From Frankia sp. AgB32 (lineage in GTDB: Bacteria > Actinomycetota > Actinomycetes > Frankiales > Frankiaceae), in NCBI RefSeq assembly GCF_023243045.1, contig NZ_JALKFX010000022.1:1-36526 (forward strand): a DNA stretch of 36,526 nt, written 5' to 3'. Within the stretch, counting starts at the first letter, position 1; every line of letters starts with the position of its first letter. The position numbers and the translations under genes were made by a program. Of the stretch, positions 1-9,645 are shown piece by piece. The notes beneath the pieces are model-generated. The model made no database searches, had not been told where the DNA came from, and saw only the letters and a program-made list of their open reading frames with translations.

Positions 1-221
1 GCCGGTCGGCAGCCAGGCGGTGACGCTGCAGCCGGTCGACGGCAGGGACGCCGAGGCGGAGGCCGGTGCGGCGGGGGGGGGGGGGGGGGGGGGCGCCCCC
101 CCGGGCCCCCCCTTCGCCGTTTCTGGGACGACTCCACAGCCCCGGAACGAGCGGACCCCGGCGCGGTGACTCCACCACCGGCCGGGGTCCTGGCCCGACC
201 TGTCTAGGAGGTCAGACCGTT
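1..221. other. Contig end with G/C homopolymer run, no supported gene
   Basis: The first 65 bases are ordinary GC-rich sequence with an open reading frame in frame 2 that could be the tail of a protein, but it runs into a long G run followed by C runs (about 67-118). The run is not plausible biology and looks like a low-quality contig end. From about 120 to 221 the sequence is normal and ends in a good ribosome binding site (AGGAGGT, 206-212) for the next gene. Confidence 0.6.
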
Positions 222-329
222 ATGAAGTGTGCCCTGTCGCCGATGCGCTCGGCGGACAACCTGACCGACGCGACGGTCCGCGAGGTCGAGCGGATCGCCC
301 GTGAGCTGATCGAGCGGGGCGGGAAGTGA
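222..329 (+). CDS. Small hypothetical AICE protein (35 aa)
   Basis: The ORF starts at an ATG 9 bases after AGGAGGT, a strong ribosome binding site, and its stop overlaps the start of the next gene (GTGA), so the two are probably translationally coupled. The predicted 35-residue peptide has a Cys near the N-terminus and an amphipathic, charged helix at its C-terminal half (residues about 14-33, rich in Glu, Arg and Ile). I do not recognise a family. Position at the head of a run of overlapping ORFs suggests it is a real small gene of the integrative element. Confidence 0.5.
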   Translation: MKCALSPMRSADNLTDATVREVERIARELIERGGK

Positions 330-739
330 CCGCCCTCGCGGCCATGGCCGCGCCGGGGCTGACCACCCCGGCGCCGGCTGGCCCGTTCGCTGCCGCGTTG
401 CACCTGGCCGCCGACCTGGTCGACCAGATGCGCGTGAGCGACCCAGACATCCGGGTGTCGGTCAGCGCGACGGACACCATCGGGACGGATCTTCCCGAGA
501 TCCGGTTCCTGTTCCACGGGACCGATCGGCAGGCGCTGGCGTCGTTGTCCGGTGCCACGTTCTCGTTCGACGTTCCGGTGACCGTGTCTGACCCGTCGCC
601 ACACATCAACGGCGGGGTGTGGGTCGGCGGGTTCGTGGTCCGCGACGGGGTCACGGTCTCGTTCCGGGCTGGGCTGAACGACCCGGAGGTCATCGCCCAC
701 GCGCGGCAGGTGTTCCCCGACGGCACCGGGGGCTGGTGA
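326..739 (+). CDS. Hypothetical AICE protein (137 aa)
   Basis: The GTG start overlaps the stop of the upstream small ORF by 4 bases and its stop overlaps the ATG of the next gene, so it belongs to one transcription unit with both. The N-terminal 25 residues are Ala/Pro-rich, then a region of alternating hydrophobic and polar residues suggests a beta-rich fold (for example the segments around IRVSVSATD and GVWVGGFVVRDGVTVSF). No catalytic motif is evident. I do not recognise the family. ATG at 344 is an alternative start. One GGGACGGAT box (482-490), the motif repeated at 7476-7606, lies inside the gene. Confidence 0.6.
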   Translation: MTALAAMAAPGLTTPAPAGPFAAALHLAADLVDQMRVSDPDIRVSVSATDTIGTDLPEIRFLFHGTDRQALASLSGATFSFDVPVTVSDPSPHINGGVWVGGFVVRDGVTVSFRAGLNDPEVIAHARQVFPDGTGGW

Positions 740-981
740 TGGCCGACCCGGTCGAGCGGGAGCCATCGGCCCGGGAGCTGGCGGCGATCGAACGGGAGTG
801 GCCGCTGATCGCCGCCGACCTCGCCGTCCTCGACGCCGAGATCACCATCCTCGCCGCCGATGCCGCCGGGCAGGTCTCCGACCTCGCCTGGCGGCGCCTG
901 GCCAACGCCCTCACTCAAGCCCGCACCGCCCGCCCGCTGTCCATCCGCCCCCGCCGATCCCGCGTTCGGCGCACCGCCTGA
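739..981 (+). CDS. DUF6284-like small protein (80 aa)
   Basis: The start codon overlaps the upstream stop (TGATG). The protein begins with a helical, acidic segment with the pattern EPSARELAAIEREWPLI followed by DLAVLDAEI, then a basic tail. This pattern (a Glu-rich AAIExExPLI helix, a LDAE helix and an Arg-rich end) resembles the small DUF6284 proteins common in actinomycete integrative elements and plasmids; that assignment is from memory of the family. Function is unknown. It is followed after 17 bases, with its own AGGAGGT site (984-990), by the membrane-protein gene. Confidence 0.6.
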   Translation: MADPVEREPSARELAAIEREWPLIAADLAVLDAEITILAADAAGQVSDLAWRRLANALTQARTARPLSIRPRRSRVRRTA

Positions 982-998
982 GCAGGAGGTGACATCCC

Positions 999-1790
999 AT
1001 GGCCACCATCAACCCCGACCCCCTCCGCCGTGTCGGCCGCGCCCTCGACGGTGCCCTATGGCTGGTCGCTCTGCTGGTTGGGGCGTACTCACTGGCCAAC
1101 GTGCACAGCGTTGCCGTCGGCCATCACACCGACGATCCGCAGGCGTGGCTGTTGGCGCCGATCGTCGACCTCGCGCTGTTCACGGGGATCACCGCCGACA
1201 GCGTTCTTGCTCGCCACGGCCTGCACCCCACCCGGTGGGGCACCGGCCTGCGCTGGTTCTGCGGCCTGGCCACCTGGACTCTTAACGTCTGGGACGCCGC
1301 CGCAAGCCTGGATGCCGGGGCGATCGTCGCGCACTCGGTCCCGCCGGTCGTGCTGATCCTGCTCGCCGAAGCCGCGCCCCGCTACCGCCACCAGTTCGCC
1401 ACCCTCACCACCACCCCGCCCGCCGACCTACCGGCACCCGCCCCCACACCAGCGACCGAAGCCGCTTCCCCACCCCCGGCCAGCACTCCGACCACCGACC
1501 CCACCCCGCCGACCAAGGACGTACCGGCGCCCCGTACCGGTACCTCACCGCGGCGCCGTACCGGTACGCCGTCCAAGCGCCGTACCGCCCGACGTACCGA
1601 CGCCGATCTGATTGCCGCACTCGCCGATGTTCCACGTGACCCGGACGGCACCGTCCCGGTACGCCGTGCCGCCGCCGCGCTCGGTTGCGGCCCCGACCGC
1701 GCCCGTCGGTTGCTCACCGCGCAAGGACTGCTCCGCCCGCGCACCACCGACGCCCCGACCGCCCCGACGCCGGTACTCACCGCCGTCTGA
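999..1790 (+). CDS. DUF2637-like membrane protein with Thr/Pro linker and C-terminal DNA-binding-like tail
   Basis: The ATG lies 8 bases after AGGAGGT. The first about 130 residues form roughly four hydrophobic segments (about residues 18-37, 48-67, 83-103 and 108-124), the layout of DUF2637 or Spd-type spread proteins that sit beside traB in actinomycete plasmids and integrative elements. A Pro/Thr/Ala-rich linker (about 140-180) leads to a basic stretch with four-residue repeats of the type RRTG, then a short C-terminal segment (about 205-255) whose VRRAAAALGCGPDRARRLL pattern looks like a helix-turn-helix. Such proteins are thought to help spread the incoming element through the mycelium. 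The C-terminal DNA-binding reading is inference. Confidence 0.7.
   Translation: MATINPDPLRRVGRALDGALWLVALLVGAYSLANVHSVAVGHHTDDPQAWLLAPIVDLALFTGITADSVLARHGLHPTRWGTGLRWFCGLATWTLNVWDAAASLDAGAIVAHSVPPVVLILLAEAAPRYRHQFATLTTTPPADLPAPAPTPATEAASPPPASTPTTDPTPPTKDVPAPRTGTSPRRRTGTPSKRRTARRTDADLIAALADVPRDPDGTVPVRRAAAALGCGPDRARRLLTAQGLLRPRTTDAPTAPTPVLTAV
1520..1599 (+). repeat. Iterated CGTACCG motif on a 12-base period
   Basis: CGTACCG occurs five times within 80 bases (starting at 1520, 1533, 1557, 1581 and 1593), with spacings of 13, 24, 24 and 12. In protein terms it encodes a degenerate four-residue RRTG/RRTA repeat. It may be purely coding, or a cluster of protein-binding sites inside the gene. Confidence 0.6.
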
Positions 1791-1805
1791 CCCCACCATC
1801 TCTGC

Positions 1806-1851
1806 CCGGGGCGCGGCGACCGTCTCGCCAAAGTCACCCGCCGCGCCCCGG
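1806..1851 (+). promoter_or_regulatory. Long conserved hairpin upstream of traB (copy A)
   Basis: Arms CCGGGGCGCGGCG (1806-1818) and CGCCGCGCCCCGG (1839-1851) are perfectly complementary over 13 pairs and enclose a 20-base loop beginning ACCGTCTCGCCAA. A near-identical element (7914-7963) precedes the integrase gene, with the same loop length. The traB ribosome binding site follows 10-15 bases later. No T run follows on this strand, so a simple intrinsic terminator is not the best explanation. Role unknown; regulatory element, attenuator or operator are all possible. Confidence 0.7.
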
Positions 1852-1878
1852 CCCTCCCCGCAAGGAGGCAGGACCATC

Positions 1879-4092
1879 ATGACCACCAACAACCCGTTCC
1901 CGCCGCCGGACCCGGACGGCTGGACCCCCGACCTCGACCCCGCGCCCGGCGCGGCGGAGGTCGTCGACCTCGACAAGGCCCGGAACCGCCGCACCGACAC
2001 CGACCAGCCCACCACCGACACCGACGACGCCACCGAGGACAGCGACAACGCGGACGAGGATGCCGAGTCGCTCACCGCCCGCCCGGAGCAGGTCGGGCCG
2101 CCGGTCGACCCGCCCGACGACGGGCCCCGTCCGGTCGGTGGGCAGCGGCGGGCACCGATCCTGCCCGCGTGGGCGCACTCCCGCGCCGACATCGCCGCGA
2201 CCGCCCGGCACGCTGTGGGCAACGCCGGCTACGCGGCCCGCTTCCACGCGGTGCGGACGCCGAAGTACGCGGCGAAGGTCGCCGTGTGGGCGCCCATCGG
2301 GTTCCTGCGCACCATCGGCCGGCTGCTTCGGTGGGCCACCGCCGAAGAGGGCAACTGGGCGTTGCGGCAGGACGCCGCCCGCAGGAACGACCCGGAGACG
2401 TGGCTGAAGCTGGACCGCCAGCGTCAGCGGCAGACCTCGACACGGTGGCCGATCCTGATCGGGGGCACCCTCGCCGCGTTGGTCGTCGCCGCAATGGTGT
2501 GGTTCGGACCGACCCCGGCGCCGGTGCGCTGGCTGGTTTTCCTGGCCGTGGTCGTGGCCTGCGCCCGGTTGGGCCGTCCGGCGGACCGGCCGATCACCGA
2601 CCGCGTCGCCACGGGGGAGACCTACCGCAAGCTGACCGCCGAACTCGTGCGCCGTGCGCTGACGTCGCTGGGTATCGCGGGGATCAACTCCGCGGTGGCG
2701 AAGAACCCCGGCGCCATCTCGTTCCCGGTGGAGATCCACCGTGACGGGCCCGGCCACCTGGCCATCGTCGACCTGCCCTACGGGGTCGAAGCAGGTGAGG
2801 TCATCGCCCGGCGTGGCCGGTTGGCGTCCGGTCTGCGGCTGCCGCTGGACCAGGTCTGGCCCGACCCCGCGCCCGGTCACACCGGCCGGTTGGCGCTGTG
2901 GGTCGGCTACCAGCCCGCATCCCAGATGCGTCAGCCTGCCTGGCCGCTGATCCGGTCCGGCAGCGTGGATGTGTTCAAGCCGTTCCCGTTCGCGACCACG
3001 CCACGGCTGAACGTCGTGACCGTGTCGCTGATCTTCCGGAACTGGCTGTTCGGTGGCCAGCCCGGCAGTGGGAAGACGTTCGCTCTGCGGCTGCTCGTGC
3101 TCGCCGCCGCCCTCGACCCGCGGGTAGAGATCCGCGGCTACGAACTGAAGGGAGTGGGTGACTTCGCCGGTACGGCGCCGGTGCTCTCGGAGTACGGCAA
3201 CGGGTTCGACGAGGACACGTTGGAAGCCTGCGCGGCGATGCTGAAGTGGCTGTACGACGAGTGCCGCCGCCGGTCGGAGCGGATCGCGTTCTACGCCGCC
3301 GCGGGCAAGGCCCCGGAGAACAAGGTGACGCCGGAACTGGCATCGCTGAAGGACTCCGGACTGCACCCGCTGGTGGCGTTCATCGACGAGATCCAGGAGC
3401 TGTTCCACTCCCCCTGGGGCAAGGAAGCCGCCGAGTACGCCGAGAAGGTCATCAAGCTCGGCCGCGCCCTGGGCGTGACCCTGCTGATCGGCACCCAGAT
3501 CCCCGACAAGGACAGCCTTCCGCCGGGGATCACCCGCAACGTCAACAGCCGGTTCTGCCTGTCGGTCGCCGACCAGGTCGCCAACGACATGATCCTGGGC
3601 ACCTCGATGTACAAGCAGGGCTACCGGGCCACCGCCTTCGAACCCGTCGTGGAAGCCGGGTGGGGCATCCTCGCCGGCTTCGGCAAGCCGTCCGCCGACC
3701 GGTCCTACCCCGTCACCGGCCCGGAGCTTGACCGCGTGATCGCCCGCGCGGTCGAACTGCGCACCGCCGCCGGCACCCTGCCGACCCCGGCGGAGCAGAC
3801 CCGCACCACCACCCCGTCCGCTGATGTGGTCGTCGACGTCGCCGCGGTCTGGCCAGCCGGTGAGGGCAAGGCGTGGAACGAGACCCTGTGCGCCCGCCTG
3901 GCCGACCTCCGCCCCGACGTCTACGGCGGATGGGAGTCCGTCCAGCTCACCGCCGCACTCAAGCCGCACGGCATCACCCCCGTCGACGTCGGCCGCCGCA
4001 TCGACGGTAAGGCCGTCACCCGACGCGGGATCTCCCACACGGCGGTCCTCGCCGTGGTGGCTGAGCGTGACCGTAAGCGGCGGGCGGACTAG
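1879..4092 (+). CDS. traB: TraB/FtsK-type conjugative DNA translocase (737 aa)
   Basis: The ATG follows AAGGAGG by 12 bases. The N-terminal about 100 residues are acidic and Pro-rich; two hydrophobic segments (about residues 190-230) would anchor the protein in the membrane. The P-loop GGQPGSGKT is at about residue 391-399 and the Walker B strand LVAFIDEIQE at about 498-507, followed by a GTQIPD sensor-like motif. The last about 80 residues form a winged-helix-like domain, as in TraB proteins that bind the clt repeats and in the FtsK gamma domain. In actinomycetes TraB alone pumps double-stranded DNA between hyphae. It is the transfer gene of this element. FtsK-like family membership is secure; that it works as TraB comes from context. 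Confidence 0.9.
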   Translation: MTTNNPFPPPDPDGWTPDLDPAPGAAEVVDLDKARNRRTDTDQPTTDTDDATEDSDNADEDAESLTARPEQVGPPVDPPDDGPRPVGGQRRAPILPAWAHSRADIAATARHAVGNAGYAARFHAVRTPKYAAKVAVWAPIGFLRTIGRLLRWATAEEGNWALRQDAARRNDPETWLKLDRQRQRQTSTRWPILIGGTLAALVVAAMVWFGPTPAPVRWLVFLAVVVACARLGRPADRPITDRVATGETYRKLTAELVRRALTSLGIAGINSAVAKNPGAISFPVEIHRDGPGHLAIVDLPYGVEAGEVIARRGRLASGLRLPLDQVWPDPAPGHTGRLALWVGYQPASQMRQPAWPLIRSGSVDVFKPFPFATTPRLNVVTVSLIFRNWLFGGQPGSGKTFALRLLVLAAALDPRVEIRGYELKGVGDFAGTAPVLSEYGNGFDEDTLEACAAMLKWLYDECRRRSERIAFYAAAGKAPENKVTPELASLKDSGLHPLVAFIDEIQELFHSPWGKEAAEYAEKVIKLGRALGVTLLIGTQIPDKDSLPPGITRNVNSRFCLSVADQVANDMILGTSMYKQGYRATAFEPVVEAGWGILAGFGKPSADRSYPVTGPELDRVIARAVELRTAAGTLPTPAEQTRTTTPSADVVVDVAAVWPAGEGKAWNETLCARLADLRPDVYGGWESVQLTAALKPHGITPVDVGRRIDGKAVTRRGISHTAVLAVVAERDRKRRAD

Positions 4093-4105
4093 TCGCCGGA
4101 GGACT

Positions 4106-4191
4106 GCTAGCGCTAGCGGACACCCCTGCTAGCGCTAGCAGATCCCCTAGCACCCCATACCAACCCTGGCCAGGGCTCTAGCAGATAGCAG
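4106..4191. promoter_or_regulatory. CTAG-rich palindromes after traB (operator or transfer-site candidate)
   Basis: GCTAGCGCTAGC occurs twice as a 12-base palindrome (4106-4117 and 4128-4139), exactly 22 bases apart, the second extended to TGCTAGCGCTAGCA. Further CTAG-containing pieces follow at 4147-4150 and 4178-4184 (CTAGCAG, then TAGCAG at 4186-4191), and CCCTGGCCAGGG (4164-4175) is another palindrome. TGCTAGC appears again at 4252-4258 inside the next gene. CTAG is normally rare in such genomes. The stretch lies in the 141-base gap between traB and the next gene. Confidence 0.6.
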
Positions 4192-4233
4192 CCCGCGGCC
4201 AACCATGCCCGAAAACGCCCCAAGGAGCGGTCT

Positions 4234-4473
4234 GTGACCCCCACCGCCGCACTGCTAGCCGCCCTCGCTCTACCCCTCACCTCCGTCACATTCGGTTACA
4301 TCTTGCTGTGCTGGGTCCGGCCGTTCGGCCCCTGCCCGCACTGCCACGGCACCGCCCGCACCGAGAGCCGTTTCACCCGCCGCACCCGCCCGTGCCGGCA
4401 CTGCGACCACACCGGCCTGCGCCTGCGCGTCGGCCGCCGCGCCTACAACACGCTCCGCCGGCTCCTGCCCTGA
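4234..4473 (+). CDS. Small membrane protein with two CxxC zinc-ribbon-like motifs (79 aa)
   Basis: The GTG start lies 7 bases after AAGGAG. The first about 28 residues are a hydrophobic segment ending in CWVRPFG, followed by CPHCHGTA and, about 20 residues later, CRHCDHTGLR, then a basic C-terminus. Paired CxxCxGxx motifs resemble half of a DnaJ-type zinc-binding domain, so the soluble part probably binds one zinc ion. Small proteins like this are frequent near traB in actinomycete elements, but I know no proven function. It is followed after 18 bases by another small membrane protein. Confidence 0.65.
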   Translation: MTPTAALLAALALPLTSVTFGYILLCWVRPFGPCPHCHGTARTESRFTRRTRPCRHCDHTGLRLRVGRRAYNTLRRLLP

Positions 4474-4491
4474 CACCCCGGGGGACCCGCC

Positions 4492-4761
4492 ATGACCGTC
4501 CTGCTCACCCTCGCCGCCCTCGCCGTGCTCCTGCTCATCCGGCCCGCACGGGCCGCCCTCGACACCATCGGCCGCGCGGTCCGGGCCGTCCGCCTGCCCG
4601 CCGCCGCGCTCGTGCTGCTCGCTCTCGCCGCCCGCGCCCCCGGTCCGGTCGGCGGCACCGCGACCACCACCCTCTACACCCTCGCCGCCGTCGCCGCCCT
4701 CGCCCTGGCCGTCGTCCTGACCGCCGTCGCCCTACGCCTGCGCGCGTCGGCTCGCCGATGA
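4492..4761 (+). CDS. Small hydrophobic membrane protein (89 aa)
   Basis: The ATG follows GGGGGA at a suitable distance. The protein is almost entirely hydrophobic Leu/Ala/Val, with predicted membrane segments at about residues 2-18, 34-48 and 58-80, and a short basic tail. It is most likely a Spd-like or other accessory transfer protein by position, but no motif supports a specific role. A 17-residue ORF (4758-4811) overlaps its stop codon; I do not call it. Confidence 0.55.
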   Translation: MTVLLTLAALAVLLLIRPARAALDTIGRAVRAVRLPAAALVLLALAARAPGPVGGTATTTLYTLAAVAALALAVVLTAVALRLRASARR

Positions 4762-4846
4762 ACCGGGCCGCCTGCCCTGACCCCGCCGGCGTCCACCGTG
4801 CCCGCCGCTGATCTCTCCACTTCCTGACCCGAGAAAGGGCCGCCCC

Positions 4847-5323
4847 ATGGCGAACGAGACCCCGTTGACCGTTGTTGGGAACCTCACCGCGGACCCGGAG
4901 CTGAAGTTCACCCCGGCCGGGGTGGCGATGTGCCGGTTCACCGTCGCGTCCACCCCGCGCCGCTTCGACAAGACCACCAACCAGTGGGCCGACGGCGACC
5001 CGATGTTCCTGACCTGCACCGCCTGGCGGACCGCCGCCGAGCATGCCGCCGACTCGCTGGCCAAGGGCATCCGGGTCATCGTCACCGGCCGCCTGCGCCA
5101 GCACCACTGGACCACCGACGCCGGAGAGCACCGGTCGATGTTCGGCCTCGACGTCGACGAGGTCGGCCCGTCGCTGCTGTTCACCACCGCCACCGTCACC
5201 CGCGCCGCCCGCGGCACCGCCCGGCGGGCGGATGACGCGTGGTCCACCGCCACCCCGGCCCGCACCGGTGGGGGCGCCGGTGAGCGGACGGAGCAGGGCT
5301 ACAGCGAGGAACCGCCGTTCTGA
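4847..5323 (+). CDS. ssb: Single-stranded DNA-binding protein (158 aa)
   Basis: Preceded by GAAAGGG 9 bases before the ATG. Residues 1-110 match the OB-fold of bacterial SSB: it opens with [21 protein letters not shown], a well-conserved start, continues with CRFTVAS and a [15 protein letters not shown] segment, and has [11 protein letters not shown]. The rest is a flexible Thr/Gly/Arg-rich tail ending in EEPPF, close to the classical DDxPF tip that recruits replication and repair proteins. It is a second, element-borne SSB, placed directly before the primase-polymerase gene, so it probably protects single-stranded DNA during replication or transfer of the element. Confidence 0.93.
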
Positions 5324-5346
5324 CCCGCCCCGCCCACGGCGGACGA

Positions 5347-5388
5347 GCGGGGGCAGGCCCGGTCGGACCCCAGTCGGCCTGCCCCCGC
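5347..5388 (+). terminator. Perfect 13-bp hairpin between ssb and the primase gene
   Basis: GCGGGGGCAGGCC (5347-5359) and GGCCTGCCCCCGC (5376-5388) form a perfect stem with a 16-base loop, 24 bases after the ssb stop. There is no T run, as is common for actinobacterial terminators. It could end the ssb transcript or separate the transfer and replication modules. Confidence 0.5.
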
Positions 5389-5432
5389 ACCGACCCGGTC
5401 CGATCCCCATCCCCTGAAAGGAGATCCGTTCC

Positions 5433-6374
5433 ATGACCACGATCGCGTCCGGCATGCTCGCCGTCGCGCTCAACGCCGCGTTCCGTGGCTGGCACGTCCT
5501 CCCGCTCCGCCCCGGCCGGAAGATCCCCCTCGCCCACAACGCCGACCACTGCCCGGCCACCGGCCCCTGCTCCGACGGGCACCGCACGTGGGAACAGCGC
5601 GCAACCCGCGACCTGGAGCAGGTCGAAGCGCACTGGTCGGCCCACCCGCACCACGGGGTGGGGATCGCGACCGGCCCGTCCGGGCTGGTCGTGGTCGACC
5701 TCGACACCCCCAAACCAGGCGACCCGCCGTTGCCCGCCGCCTGGCAGGCCGAAAAGGTCCGCACCGGCGCCGACGCCCTGGCCGTCCTCGCCCGGCGCGC
5801 CGGAGTGGAGATCCCCCGCACGTACATGGTCCGCACGGGCCGCGGGGGGTGGCACCTGTACTACGCCGCCCCGTCCGGCCTCCGGGTGGGCAACACCGGT
5901 CGGAGTCTCGGCCCGTGGATCGACACCCGCGGATGGGGCGGACAGGTCGTCGCCGCCGGAACGGCCGTGGCCGGACGGCCATACACGACCGTCCGGAACC
6001 TACCCGTCGCCCCGCTGCACCCCGCCCTGTTTCAGCCCTTGCTCACCCCGCCGCGCCCCGCGCCCCGGCCGGTCCGGGTGACCCTGCCGGCCGGGCGCCG
6101 GACGGCCTACCTGAACGCCGCGATCCGCCGTCAACTCGGCTACATCACCGACGCGAGCACCGGCACCCGGAACACCGCCCTCTACCGCTCCGCGGTGGCC
6201 CTGGGGCAACTCTCTGCCGGGGGCGCGCTCACCGACATCGAGGTCATCGACATGCTGAAACAGGCTGCCGACATCCACATCGGTACCGATGGGTTCAGCG
6301 CCGCCAGCGCGGACGCCACGATCCGTTCCGGCCTGCGTGCCGGTGCGGCCCGCCCCCGGCAGGTTCCCGCATGA
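5433..6374 (+). CDS. Primase-polymerase replication protein (313 aa)
   Basis: The ATG follows GAAAGGAG. The protein has the hallmarks of the bifunctional DNA primase/polymerase (Prim-Pol) domain: WHVLPLRPGRKIPL near residue 19-32, GVGIATGPSGLVVVDLD with the metal-binding D89-x-D91, TGRGGWHLYY with H141, and DTRGWGGQVVAAG. The C-terminal about 100 residues are helical, probably a regulatory or DNA-binding region. Prim-Pol proteins (RepPP type) define one class of actinomycete integrative elements and would start replication of the excised circle. It overlaps the following ATPase gene by 4 bases, so the two are coupled. Copy of the catalytic residues looks intact. Confidence 0.88.
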   Translation: MTTIASGMLAVALNAAFRGWHVLPLRPGRKIPLAHNADHCPATGPCSDGHRTWEQRATRDLEQVEAHWSAHPHHGVGIATGPSGLVVVDLDTPKPGDPPLPAAWQAEKVRTGADALAVLARRAGVEIPRTYMVRTGRGGWHLYYAAPSGLRVGNTGRSLGPWIDTRGWGGQVVAAGTAVAGRPYTTVRNLPVAPLHPALFQPLLTPPRPAPRPVRVTLPAGRRTAYLNAAIRRQLGYITDASTGTRNTALYRSAVALGQLSAGGALTDIEVIDMLKQAADIHIGTDGFSAASADATIRSGLRAGAARPRQVPA

Positions 6375-7639
6375 CCACCCGCCCGCCGGCCGATGGTGCG
6401 GCCATCCTCGACACGCTCCGGGCCGCGCTCGTGCGGTATGTCGTGCTGCCCTCGCCGCAGGCCACCGATGCCGTGGTGCTGTGGATCGCCGCCAGCCACG
6501 CCCAACCCGCGTGGGCGCACGCGCCGCGGCTGGTGATCCGCGCGCCGGAGAAGCGGTGCGGGAAATCCCGCCTGCTTGACGTCATCGAAGCCACCTGCCA
6601 TAACCCGCTCATCACCGTGAACGCCTCCACCGCCGCTATCTACCGGTCGATTGACGACGACCCGCCAACGCTGCTCGTCGACGAATCCGACACCATTTTC
6701 GGTGGGAAATCCGCGGACACCAACGAGGATCTGCGCGGCCTACTGAATGCCGGTCACCAGCGGAACCGGCCTGCGCTTCGGTGGGACAACGTCGGCCGTC
6801 AACTCGAACGCTGCCCCACCTTCGCCATGGCCGCACTCGCCGGAATCGGCGCCATGCCCGACACCATCGAAGACCGCGCCGTGGTCATCCGCATGCGCCG
6901 CCGCATGCCCGGAGAAACCGTCTCCCCCTACCGCCACCGCCGCGACCGGCCCACCCTGCGCACCATCGCCGAAGACCTTTCCGGCTGGCTCCGTCCCGAC
7001 CTCGCCGCCCTGGAACGCGCCGAACCCGCCATGCCGGTGGAGGACCGGGCCGCCGACACCTGGGAACCACTGTTCGCCGTCGCCGAGCACGCCGGTGGGC
7101 CCTGGCCGGACCGGGCCCGACGCGCTGTCGACGTGCTCACAGCCGAAGCTGACGAAGGGGAGGAATCCTCACAGCGGGTCCGGCTTCTGCTCGACTGCCG
7201 CCGCGCGTTCGGCGCCGAGAACGCGCTTCCCACCGCCCGGCTGCTGCAACTCCTCAACGGCGACCCCGAAGCACCGTGGGCTGAACACGGCCCGGCCGGA
7301 CTCACCGGCCGCCGCCTGGCCGTCATGCTCCGCGACTACGGCATCCGCTCCGCCAACATCCGCTTCCCGGATGGCGCCCAGGCCAAGGGCTACGACCGCG
7401 CCGCGTTCACCGATGCGTGGGCCCGCTACTGCCCGCCCGACGACCCCGAGGACCCGTCCGCGGGGGTCACGTCCCATCCGTCCCGACCGTCGCCGCCCAG
7501 CTCAGCGCGGGACGGATACCCGCCGTGGGACGGATCGATCCGTCCCGGCACACCGATCCGTCCCGGCCTGACCAGCCACAACGAGCGTGTGACGGATGGG
7601 ACGGATACCCCACCGGCACCCGCGATCGCCCCGGCATGA
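6371..7639 (+). CDS. DUF3631 ATPase/helicase-like replication protein (422 aa)
   Basis: The start overlaps the stop of the Prim-Pol gene (ATGA). A P-loop variant EKRCGKS is at residues 60-66 and a Walker B-like LLVDESD at 101-107; later comes TFAMAALAGIGAMPDTI and an Arg-rich RMRRRMPGE segment that leads into the DUF3631 region (about 190-370). DUF3631 proteins occur beside or fused to primases in plasmids, phages and integrative elements and are thought to act as helicase or helicase-loader ATPases. The last about 55 residues are low-complexity, and the DNA encoding them contains the symmetric GGGACGGAT array (7476-7606), so the tail may be shaped by DNA function rather than protein function. 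Confidence 0.85.
   Translation: MTTRPPADGAAILDTLRAALVRYVVLPSPQATDAVVLWIAASHAQPAWAHAPRLVIRAPEKRCGKSRLLDVIEATCHNPLITVNASTAAIYRSIDDDPPTLLVDESDTIFGGKSADTNEDLRGLLNAGHQRNRPALRWDNVGRQLERCPTFAMAALAGIGAMPDTIEDRAVVIRMRRRMPGETVSPYRHRRDRPTLRTIAEDLSGWLRPDLAALERAEPAMPVEDRAADTWEPLFAVAEHAGGPWPDRARRAVDVLTAEADEGEESSQRVRLLLDCRRAFGAENALPTARLLQLLNGDPEAPWAEHGPAGLTGRRLAVMLRDYGIRSANIRFPDGAQAKGYDRAAFTDAWARYCPPDDPEDPSAGVTSHPSRPSPPSSARDGYPPWDGSIRPGTPIRPGLTSHNERVTDGTDTPPAPAIAPA
7476..7606. repeat. Symmetric array of GGGACGGAT boxes (origin/iteron candidate)
   Basis: Nine-base box GGGACGGAT or its complement ATCCGTCCC occurs at 7476-7484 (inverted), 7509-7517, 7527-7535, 7538-7546 (inverted), 7556-7564 (inverted), 7598-7606, and imperfectly at 7589-7597. 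The middle pair makes the perfect palindrome GGGACGGATCGATCCGTCCC (7527-7546). Boxes lie at mirror-image distances from its centre (5.5, 23.5 and 56.5 bases on each side) and in mirror-image orientation, although the spacers differ. The array overlaps the 3' end of the DUF3631 gene. Confidence 0.75.
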
Positions 7640-7725
7640 CCCGCCGCCTGGCCCCCACCCGTGCCCCGCCCCGGCCGCGGACCGGCCCGCCCTCCACCGC
7701 CGATTCCCTGCCCCAGGAGCAGACC

Positions 7726-7908
7726 GTGCCCGCCGCCCCGACCCGGGTCCTCCTCACCGTCGAAGAAGCCGCCGAACAGCTCACGATCGGCCGCACCACC
7801 CTCTACGCCCTCATCCGCACCGGCGCGATCCCGTCCGTCCGGATCGGCAAGCTCCGCCGCCTGCGCCCCGCCGACCTCGCCGCCTACACCGCCCGACTCA
7901 GCGCCTGA
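7726..7908 (+). CDS. xis: Excisionase, MerR-type helix-turn-helix (60 aa)
   Basis: I chose the GTG at 7726 because CAGGAG precedes it by 6 bases and the resulting 60 residues match the usual excisionase length; an ATG at 7636, overlapping the stop of the DUF3631 gene, would add 30 Pro/Arg-rich residues. The core LLTVEEAAEQLTIGRTTLY followed by ALIRTGAIPSVRIGKLRRL is the standard excisionase/MerR winged-helix DNA-binding motif. Located one gene upstream of the integrase, it probably directs the integrase toward excision. Confidence 0.85.
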   Translation: MPAAPTRVLLTVEEAAEQLTIGRTTLYALIRTGAIPSVRIGKLRRLRPADLAAYTARLSA

Positions 7909-7913
7909 CCCGC

Positions 7914-7963
7914 CCCCGGGGCGCGGTGACCGTCTCGCCAACGCCACCCACCGCGCCCCGGGG
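7914..7963 (+). promoter_or_regulatory. Long conserved hairpin upstream of int (copy B)
   Basis: CCCCGGGGCGCGGTG (7914-7928) and CACCGCGCCCCGGGG (7949-7963) form a perfect 15-bp stem with a 20-base loop that begins ACCGTCTCGCCAA, nearly the same loop as copy A (1806-1851). One stem pair differs between copies in both partners: C1817-G1840 in A is T7927-A7950 in B. It lies in the 82-base gap between xis and int, upstream of the int ribosome binding site (AGAGGAG). Confidence 0.7.
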
Positions 7964-7990
7964 CCACACCCCCCAGAGGAGTCACCGACC

Positions 7991-9241
7991 ATGCCCCGCA
8001 AGCGCAAGGAAGGCACCCGAGCACCCAACGGCGCGTCCAGCATCTACCGCGGCGCCGACGGATCCTGGCACGGTCGGGTAACCGTGGGCGCGCGCGACGA
8101 CGGGAAGCCGGACCGCCGGCATGTGCGCGGCAAGTCCGAGACGGAGGTCACCCGCAAGGTTCGCAAGCTCGAACAGGACCGGGATGCGGGCACCGTCCGC
8201 AAGCCCGGTCGGCCGTGGACGGTGGAGCGGTGGCTGACGCATTGGGCGGAGAACATCGCCGCGCCGTCGGTCAGTGAGAACACCATTGCCGGCTATCGGG
8301 TCGCGGTACGCGTTCACCTGATTCCGGGCCTGGGCGCACACCGGCTGGACCGGCTGGAACCGGAGCACGTCGAGAAGCTCATGCAGAAAATGCAGCGGGC
8401 GGGTAGTTCTCCGGCCACCGCCCACCAGGCATACCGGACGCTCAAAACGGCGCTGAATGAGGCGGTGCGCCGCAAGCACATCACGGAGAATCCAACACTG
8501 ATCGCCAAACCGCCCAAGCTGGTGGAAGAGGAGGTGGAGCCCTACACGGTGCAGGAGGTGCAGCGCCTTCTGGTCGCGGCCGCGCGGCGGCGGAACAGCG
8601 CGCGGTGGGCGCTCGCGCTGGCGCTGGGGCTGCGTCAAAGCGAAGTGCTCGGGTTGAAATGGGCCGACGTCGACCTGGACCAGGGGGTGCTGCGGATCCG
8701 CCGGGGCCGACTGCGGCCGAAGTACGCCCACGGCTGCCGGGTGCCCTGCGGTCGCAAGGCCGGTTACTGCCGCGACCGGGTGGCGGTGCATCCGGACACC
8801 CGGGACACCAAGTCCCGGGCGGGACGCCGGCCGATCGGCCTGCCCGACGAGCTGGTGGCGATCCTGCGGCGGCACCGCGACGTCCAGGCCGCGGAACGGG
8901 TGCTGGCCGCGTCGCTGTGGCAGGAGGCGGGGTGGGTGTTCACCAACGAGATCGGCCGGCCGCTCAACCCGAACACCGATTACCACCAGTGGAAGGCGCT
9001 CGTACAGGCTGCCGGGGTCCGCGACGCCCGGTTGCACGATGCCCGGCACACCGCGGCCACGGCCCTGTTGCTGCTGGGGGTGCCGGACCGGATCGTCATG
9101 GGGATCATGGGGTGGTCCTCGGACATGCGCCGCCGCTACCAGCACGTGACCGACCCGATGTTGCGGGACACCGCGGACAAGATCGGTCGGCTGCTGTGGG
9201 AGGTACCAACCGCGGCAGAGCGCCCCGCCGGGGCCGAATGA
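7991..9241 (+). CDS. int: Tyrosine site-specific integrase (416 aa)
   Basis: The ATG follows AGAGGAG by 8 bases. An N-terminal arm-binding region (about 1-60) with GSWHGRVTVG precedes a SAM-like core-binding domain (about 70-170) and the catalytic domain. Catalytic residues are visible: R215 in ALGLRQSE, H349 and R352 in HDARHT, W375 in GWSS and nucleophile Y383 in RRRYQHVTD. A Cys-containing insertion (about residues 245-270) between the first Arg and the HxxR box is common in actinobacterial integrases. The gene reads toward the tRNA-Ser 3' end, 89 bases away, the typical arrangement for tRNA-targeted elements. Together with the excisionase it would integrate and excise this element. Confidence 0.95.
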   Translation: MPRKRKEGTRAPNGASSIYRGADGSWHGRVTVGARDDGKPDRRHVRGKSETEVTRKVRKLEQDRDAGTVRKPGRPWTVERWLTHWAENIAAPSVSENTIAGYRVAVRVHLIPGLGAHRLDRLEPEHVEKLMQKMQRAGSSPATAHQAYRTLKTALNEAVRRKHITENPTLIAKPPKLVEEEVEPYTVQEVQRLLVAAARRRNSARWALALALGLRQSEVLGLKWADVDLDQGVLRIRRGRLRPKYAHGCRVPCGRKAGYCRDRVAVHPDTRDTKSRAGRRPIGLPDELVAILRRHRDVQAAERVLAASLWQEAGWVFTNEIGRPLNPNTDYHQWKALVQAAGVRDARLHDARHTAATALLLLGVPDRIVMGIMGWSSDMRRRYQHVTDPMLRDTADKIGRLLWEVPTAAERPAGAE

Positions 9242-9329
9242 GACCGAAACTGAGACCGCAGGATCTCGCACCGGATCGTGTGGTCCGCCCGGCGGAGGCA
9301 GAAGCCCTGGCAGGCCAGGGTGATCGTTG

Positions 9330-9414
9330 CGGAGGATAAGAGATTCGAACTCTTGAGGGGTTGCCCCCAACACGCTTTCCAAGCGTGCGCCCTAGGCCAC
9401 TAGGCGAATCCTCC
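9330..9414 (-). tRNA. tRNA-Ser (anticodon GGA)
   Basis: On the minus strand the acceptor stem GGAGGAT pairs with ATCCTCC, the anticodon arm is CACGC-TTGGAAA-GCGTG with anticodon GGA, a long variable arm (GGGG-GCAA-CCCC) is present as expected for serine tRNA, and the T arm is AAGAG-TTCGAAT-CTCTT. The discriminator base is G; CCA is not encoded. It reads UCC and UCU serine codons. Its 3' end faces the integrase gene. Confidence 0.95.
9331..9360. other. Probable att core at the 3' end of tRNA-Ser
   Basis: The integrase ends 89 bases from the tRNA 3' end, and tRNA-targeting elements of this kind keep an identical copy of the tRNA 3' segment at each end. The core should therefore lie within the T arm and acceptor stem. 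The matching second copy is not in the window, so the exact limits cannot be given. Confidence 0.5.
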
Positions 9415-9507: not shown

Positions 9508-9603
9508 GGGCAGACCCCTCGTGCGGCGCTACCCTCGTGAACTCCCCCAGGGCCGGAAGGCAGCAAGGGTAAGCGGGCTCTGGCGGGTGTGCGGGGGGTC
9601 CCT
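9508..9603 (+). ncRNA. ffs: Signal recognition particle RNA, small bacterial type
   Basis: The diagnostic apical part is present: GGCCGGAAGGCAGCAAGG then GTAAGC (about 9551-9575), with the GGAA tetraloop and internal-loop bases that bind Ffh. The ends pair (GACCCC at about 9513-9518 with GGGGTC near 9595-9600). Its place directly upstream of dnaX is the usual actinobacterial order. The RNA forms SRP with Ffh and targets membrane proteins. End positions are approximate. Confidence 0.88.
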
Positions 9604-9645
9604 TCGTTTCGCCGATCTTCTCGTCGAGCATGCGGAGCAGGACAC

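Follow-up and report, generated by a model that had tools for sequence, protein, structure and literature searches.

A conserved hexaloop hairpin recurs upstream of genes in actinomycete conjugative elements and plasmids, with a probable role in their control

The targets of ANTAR are paired hairpins located in leaders, with hexaloops that carry A1 and G4. In IncI-type plasmids, the loops of the replication control (UUGGCG/CGCCAA) act by pairing with a complementary RNA. Phage phiC31 reportedly has terminators without poly-U, which are GC-rich inverted repeats between the early genes of this Streptomyces mobile genome. The joint switch-on of replication, transfer and integration in integrated actinomycete elements is, to our knowledge, known mainly at the level of transcription.

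The SAS/ESAS sequences of cluster K mycobacteriophages occur in multiple copies, each ahead of the start of one of a set of non-structural genes, which does not include all of these genes (PMC3203893). The SAS is a 13-bp box, GGGATAGGAGCCC, found at the start within two deviations, and about half of the copies have inverted repeats, which are 17 bp long, conserved in sequence and separated by a variable spacer (PMC3203893). Their role is given as unknown, and one in translation initiation is suggested (PMC3203893). The STAXI motif consists of tandem pseudoknots near ssb, integrase and other DNA-handling genes, its function being left open (PMC2864571).

The DNA studied here, hereafter the window, is a stretch of 36,526 nucleotides from Frankia sp. 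AgB32 (contig NZ_JALKFX010000022.1, positions 1 to 36,526). A first-pass annotation had noticed nearly the same hairpin at two places of the integrative element located at 1-9241. The features around these hairpins are the following (R3 is a covariance model described below).

999..1790, + strand: gene 5' of hairpin 1, 263 aa, phrog_25954 (function unknown); its stop is 15 nt before hairpin 1
1806..1851, + strand: copy 1 of the hairpin, ahead of traB, with its lower stem at 1806-1818/1839-1851; R3 match of 69.8 bits, E 9.9e-10
1824..1833: apex of copy 1, pairs 1825-1832 and 1824-1833, hexaloop CGCCAA at 1826-1831
1862..1868, + strand: Shine-Dalgarno-like AAGGAGG of traB, within the 27-nt hairpin-ATG gap, read from the sequence
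1879..4092, + strand: TraB/FtsK-SpoIIIE-like DNA translocase gene, 3' of hairpin 1 (phrog_1358, 7.9e-20)
7726..7908, + strand: small helix-turn-helix gene, 60 aa, 5' of int (HTH_17, 9.6e-14); its stop is 5 nt before hairpin 2
7914..7963, + strand: copy 2 of the hairpin, ahead of int, with its lower stem at 7914-7928/7949-7963; R3 match of 56.6 bits, E 2.9e-7
7934..7943: apex of copy 2, pair 7934-7943 kept, 7935/7942 an unpaired T.C, hexaloop CGCCAA at 7936-7941
7976..7981, + strand: Shine-Dalgarno-like GAGGAG of int, within the 27-nt hairpin-ATG gap, read from the sequence
7991..9241, + strand: tyrosine integrase gene, 3' of hairpin 2 (Phage_integrase 4e-23; phrog_1)

The sequence and our scripts bear out the two near-identical hairpins. 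The first consists of CCGGGGCGCGGCG, a 20-nt loop and CGCCGCGCCCCGG, with 13 perfect pairs, and the second of CCCCGGGGCGCGGTG, a 20-nt loop and CACCGCGCCCCGGGG, with 15 perfect pairs. The loops share 18 of 20 bases, and together the hairpins form a 47-nt direct repeat (D7) of 91% identity. The double change that had been reported, C-G at 1817/1840 against T-A at 7927/7950, is present in the sequence. The homologous copy L039 has a G-U at the position of this variable pair, and the change thus has a one-step intermediate. Both hairpins lie directly before their gene, as had been claimed, each ending 27 nt ahead of the ATG (1879 for traB, 7991 for int). The traB product matches Pfam FtsK_SpoIIIE with an E-value of 0.0034, a match that stays below Pfam's cut-off, and the product of 7726..7908 is excisionase-like, judging from its domain and position. 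A tRNA-Ser (GGA, 9329-9414), which is likely an attachment site, and a bacterial SRP RNA (9510-9606) directly follow int. At the left end of the window, a run of 21 G (73-93) is possibly an assembly artefact or a variable tract.

Folded with its flanks, the hairpin at 1806-1851 reaches -41.6 kcal/mol (z -3.9; none of 200 shuffles as good) and that at 7914-7963 reaches -42.0 kcal/mol (z -3.3; 2 of 200 shuffles as good). Perfect arms of at least 12 bp with loops of 3-25 nt occur at four places of the element, and 29 of its 30 dinucleotide shuffles have no such place, the remaining one having one. Besides the twin hairpins, the four places are 4104-4141 and 5347-5388. The former is a second type of hairpin (CTGCTAGCGCTAGC inverted repeat), right after traB, which recurs at L165:8444-8481 and L167:9456-9503, the L167 copy with a two-sided change. 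The latter, located between ssb and the primase-polymerase gene, has a stem of 13 bp and a loop of 16 nt; its layout is the same, without CGCCAA, and no strong hairpin is listed at the matching place of L167. An exact 16-base pattern around the loop is found in the window's genome at the two window sites only. In another stretch of this genome (L397:4880-4917), a hairpin before a related integrase keeps the stem and lacks the hexaloop.

The first-pass annotation proposed a search of related elements for the motif, and covariance models do find it in many of them. Model R1, built from 7 near-identical copies of three genomes, matched 11 of the 35 genomes of f1, the family of the window's genome, at E<=0.05; most of these matches have the loop core, and in some the loop is shortened. 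It also matched one genome of another family, f18. Model R2, based on a MAFFT alignment of 17 copies, matched at E<=0.02 30 of 393 genomes of Actinomycetia, including sites without the loop core, and 16 of the 41 genomes of f18; its matches below about 38 bits include such coreless sites (e.g., L200, L201, L204, L206, L207 and L209), and L224 and L229, at contig edges, were left out when the matches were re-read. With model R3, built from 52 copies, 24 of the 393 genomes were matched at E<=0.001, all from f1 and f18, under strict filters by which weak matches are lost. Weaker matches come from two genomes of family f17 (L202 and L203, R2 E 0.006, R3 40.4 bits in L375) and from family f37 (L210, R2 E 0.018, R3 43.0 bits in L396); all three sites have the loop core and a gene behind. 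None of 40 non-actinobacterial control genomes was matched at E<=0.02.

The motif is also present on plasmids of Streptomyces sp. ITFR-6, NBC_01102, 11-1-2 and NBC_01304. In phages, a blastn query returned ten records, all at E 10. The loop pattern occurs in at least 120 stretches of viral contigs; in those listed, a descriptor scan picked up two hairpins, of which L306 is convincing (although without an R2 match at E<=0.05) and L312 is weak. Scanning the genome contigs for the exact pattern, which proved too loose, gave at least 116 stretches, and none of those listed has the full hairpin. In 41 of 47 loci, traB, an integrase or a primase-polymerase gene lies within about 9 kb of the motif; the exceptions are L205, L355, L357, L365, L379 and L396, of which L355 and L357 are plasmids. 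Some elements (L362, L365, L353) have several copies, whose stems differ and whose loop cores are identical or alike.

Compensatory pairs beyond the one first seen are numerous. Among 52 copies (49 distinct), 11 of the 13 stem pairs show two-sided changes and 99.0% of the cells pair, in an alignment (A4) that was fitted to the stem of the model and favours it; the shuffled mean is 4.5 such pairs and slid controls give 2-5. Two-sided cells number 56 against 10.0 in shuffles, and none of 500 shuffles is as high. A4 consists of sense rows at a stricter E-value, and alignment A3, which mixed sense and antisense matches, was not used. In the MAFFT alignment of 17 copies behind R2, 5 of 13 pairs are two-sided and 98.6% of the cells pair. 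Judged from these alignments, the motif behaves as a conserved structured RNA, with compensatory changes in excess of both shuffles and slid controls. The non-Watson-Crick cells of the stem are 5 G-U, 8 A-C and 5 other; G-U is no commoner than A-C, so the wobbles do not show that the pairing is that of RNA.

Anchoring 61 distinct copies on GCCA reveals two extra covarying pairs, which enclose a loop of six bases (54 and 55 of 61 copies pair, against 39.9 and 33.4 in shuffles). Counted over the 31 distinct apical 12-mers, each pair forms in 27, compared to 20.6 and 15.7 in shuffles (0 of 5000 as high), and RNAalifold places the same two pairs on A4. On these 12-mers, a third possible pair (12 of 31, p 0.37) and two shifted registers are unsupported. 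In the 61 copies, the hexaloop is CGCCAA in 51, GGCCAA in 5, CGCCAC in 3, GGCCAG in 1 and UGCCAG in 1, counts that select for GCCA, 8 of 83 copies without this central core having been left out (GACCAA and UACCAA loops are among them). The motif is a GC-rich lower stem of variable sequence, mostly of 11-14 bp, followed by an internal loop, an apical helix of 2 bp and a hexaloop CGCCAA with the core GCCA and few variants.

The first-pass annotation had envisaged an operator for a shared regulator. A plain DNA operator is unlikely, since the stem sequence varies while the pairing and the hexaloop are kept. The free stem sequence, together with the kept pairing and loop, suggests that what is recognised is a folded single strand, of which mRNA would be the simplest case.

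The traB genes of f1 give another view of the distribution. Of 57 traB-like matches, 30 were examined, and a hairpin with a CGCCAA-type loop stands right before traB in nine of them, the window included (one loop is CGCCCA). Among the 12 matches with the best E-values, the hairpin is present in ten (nine among the 30, plus G018:C5 in L439), one (L429) has a like stem with the loop GUUCAUC, and one (L410) is without hairpin. The thirteenth match, L413, has the loop GUUCAUC again. These GUUCAUC-loop stems (L413:1392-1433 and L429:1390-1433) are present as a single copy per scanned region (L435, L436). In the remaining 17 examined loci, no R3 match was found at E<=0.1.

The tie to traB and int that had been noticed in the window is real, both genes being preceded by the hairpin, but it is not exclusive: the genes 3' of the motif encode, by Pfam, FtsK/TraB, integrase, primase-polymerase, SSB, DnaB-N/DUF3987 (helicase-like) and C-5 cytosine methylase, and, by eye, small zinc-ribbon-like proteins. 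A conserved uncharacterised family, A5, of about 90-170 aa (MRxYIGxQ...EFIELALG) also has the hairpin ahead of its gene (L362, L363, L369, L371, L388 and L353); three members compared with Pfam and NCBIfam, and two with PHROGs, gave no match. In L362, L363, L369 and L371, the copy is in the leader of this apparent first gene and no long frame ends within 60 nt upstream, and in L388 it starts 5 nt after a stop codon.

The place of the hairpin relative to start codons is kept, as had been anticipated, although not before traB and int only. In 80 copies, the hairpin-to-start distance is 23-69 nt, with a median of 35.5 and 67 copies at 25-45 nt, and is partly so by construction, because, outside the annotated plasmids, a script picked the start within a range of 18-75 nt. 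Annotated distances are about 23, 67 and 84 nt on pSITFR-6c (L353), 57 and 67 nt on the 11-1-2 plasmid and 33 nt on NBC_01304. In a divergent gap of pSITFR-6c, a like hairpin (L353:10309-10349, loop CUGCCAGG), seen in the descriptor scan only and without R3 match, lies 33 nt before the first gene of an operon.

On the 5' side, an open frame of 100 codons or more ends no further than 10 nt from the hairpin in 46 of 81 distinct copies, compared to 2.8% of random same-strand positions. A host RNase might cut the few unpaired nucleotides that separate the stop codon from the hairpin, or the stem itself, and so give the downstream cistron its own mRNA with a protective 5' hairpin. This processing or stability site, which we consider rather unlikely, would fit the location of the hairpin between co-directional genes and the fixed gap from the stop codon to the modelled stem, which is precisely 6 or 7 nt long in 36 of the 81 copies and often reads UAGAUA, UAGCUA or UGACUU. 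However, such a site alone would leave the sequence conservation of the hexaloop and its separate covarying helix unaccounted for, and for 19 of the 81 copies the 60 nt upstream contain no such stop.

The stem is strong and GC-rich, comes right behind a stop codon and has a pyrimidine-rich tail, which would also suit a conditional terminator or attenuator devoid of U-tract, of the kind reported for the early genes of phiC31; an antiterminator that reads the loop would relieve it. We regard this as unlikely. There is no T-run, and a terminator scan reports neither window hairpin (its loop limit of 8 also excludes both); the strong + strand stems of phiC31 do not include a CGCCAA-loop hairpin, the best R3 match on either strand having 25.3 bits and an E-value of 0.21. 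Moreover, some copies sit in leaders, and a plain terminator does not need a conserved loop. An intrinsic U-tract terminator finds no support in the same scan or in the C-rich tails.

The orientation of the hairpin was compared with that of the next gene. By plasmid annotation, this gene is on the same strand at all the sites tested (three in L353, three in L354, two in L355 and one in L357). For 73 sites, the strand of the best-supported downstream gene was determined automatically; it agrees with that of the hairpin in 50 cases and disagrees in 7, the other 16 being undecided. The 7 comprise three plasmid sites at which annotation puts the gene on the same strand, L371, which is same-strand by its lead-gene homologue, L376:10001 and L366:10464, which are ambiguous, and L393:14839-14883, where the hairpin is inverted before a traB gene. 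Among the 16, L374:3355-3403 is inverted before a lead gene and L376:12538 is ambiguous. The orientation rule is thus strong, with at least two exceptions.

These two inverted copies would suit a hairpin that acts as DNA, for example as a cruciform or as a single-strand site for replication or transfer, such as a priming site of the element's primase-polymerase. The absence of G-U preference in the stems is consistent with such a role, and primase-polymerase clusters, whose members were confirmed by Pfam, occur in 19 and 9 of the 47 loci. We nevertheless find it improbable, given the tight link to stop codons, the link to the gene strand in most decided cases (50 of 57 by script, and 4 of the other 7 by annotation or homology) and the several copies per element before unrelated genes. 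Less probable still is a selfish palindrome of the REP type, or an inverted repeat maintained by mutation, with no role for the element. Several intergenic copies per element are compatible with it, and template switching can correct GC-rich palindromes and mimic covariation, but the copies mostly have one orientation to the gene, the loop is conserved despite varied stems and the spacing to stop codons is fixed.

Copies located both in leaders and between genes point to an action on the downstream gene, and the motif probably helps to control genes of actinomycete conjugative elements and plasmids. The reading that we favour, to which we give slightly less than an even chance, is that the twin hairpins are two instances of an mRNA element that acts in cis and is conserved in the TraB-type integrative elements of actinomycetes and in related plasmids; its hexaloop would be read by a shared trans-acting factor. 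The hairpin would be transcribed and lie in the mRNA just past the upstream stop, or in the leader of apparent first genes, typically 25-45 nt ahead of the downstream start codon. The factor, presumably an RNA-binding protein of the element or of the host, would recognise the hexaloop and favour or hinder expression. Several genes of one element could thereby share one post-transcriptional control, of translation or of mRNA processing. The "conserved regulatory element" of the first-pass annotation stands as regards conservation (copies, kept pairing, kept place before the start), while its regulatory role is what we infer.

An RNA switch, the other reading first suggested, finds no backing in the pairing of the linker or loop with the Shine-Dalgarno region. 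In the fold of 1806-1851, a C/U-rich stretch 3' of the stem looks complementary to it; over 77 copies, pairing with the own Shine-Dalgarno region is no better than with those of other copies (for the linker, -5.46 compared with -5.76 in permutations, p 0.96; for the loop, -5.44 compared with -5.70, p 0.93), and sequestration was rejected as a specific switch. A complementary RNA borne by the element (antisense or kissing loop) was rejected too, the longest complement being 8.83 for own cores (70) and 8.84 for other cores (560); the 12-13-nt loop complement of L365 is a further sense hairpin (L199:400). As for a common regulator, clustering of the open reading frames of the 47 loci gave no protein family present in all the elements, the best being traB (27 of 47), followed by integrase (23), the primase-polymerase clusters and ssb (15).

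Going further, the mRNAs for transfer, replication and integration might form an RNA regulon, marked by the same hexaloop hairpin and switched together by one dedicated RNA-binding protein, encoded by the element or the host, as the element leaves its quiet state; the motif would then be a previously undescribed RNA family. We hold this extension as possible and decidedly tentative. A shared mRNA hairpin in front of many of these genes would add a post-transcriptional layer to the joint control of element genes. The motif might also serve as a marker for finding such elements, and a simple genetic test would be possible, in which the hexaloop is changed and expression and transfer are followed.

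The motif is apparently undescribed so far. At the gathering threshold, Rfam 15 recognises only the SRP RNA and tRNA in the window, and in seven loci searched at E<1 its matches are limited to tRNA and to mir-941, the latter by chance and outside the hairpin. A literature search, mostly among papers outside subscription, gave no paper that describes the motif in its title or the opening of its abstract. A word search of the main text of an article on AICEs of Frankia found no occurrence of hairpin, stem-loop, inverted repeat, palindrom- or intergenic (PMC3218068).

Several described systems share part of these features. Like the phiC31 terminators, the motif is a GC-rich inverted repeat between genes, but no CGCCAA hairpin was found in the phiC31 record. 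The IncI-type loops have the same six letters in a hairpin context, whereas the elements studied here have no enriched complementary partner. The ANTAR targets are also hexaloop hairpins in leaders; here the hairpin is single and has C1 and C4. Like STAXI, the motif is structured and lies near ssb and integrase genes; unlike STAXI, it has no tandem pseudoknots, and no Rfam match is found here. The SAS box is absent from all 80 linkers within two mismatches, one linker having it at three. SAS/ESAS is the nearest kind, of which the motif is not a member: both are repeated before start codons in mobile actinobacterial genomes, but SAS/ESAS has a conserved stem and a variable spacer, whereas the motif described here has a variable stem and a conserved loop.
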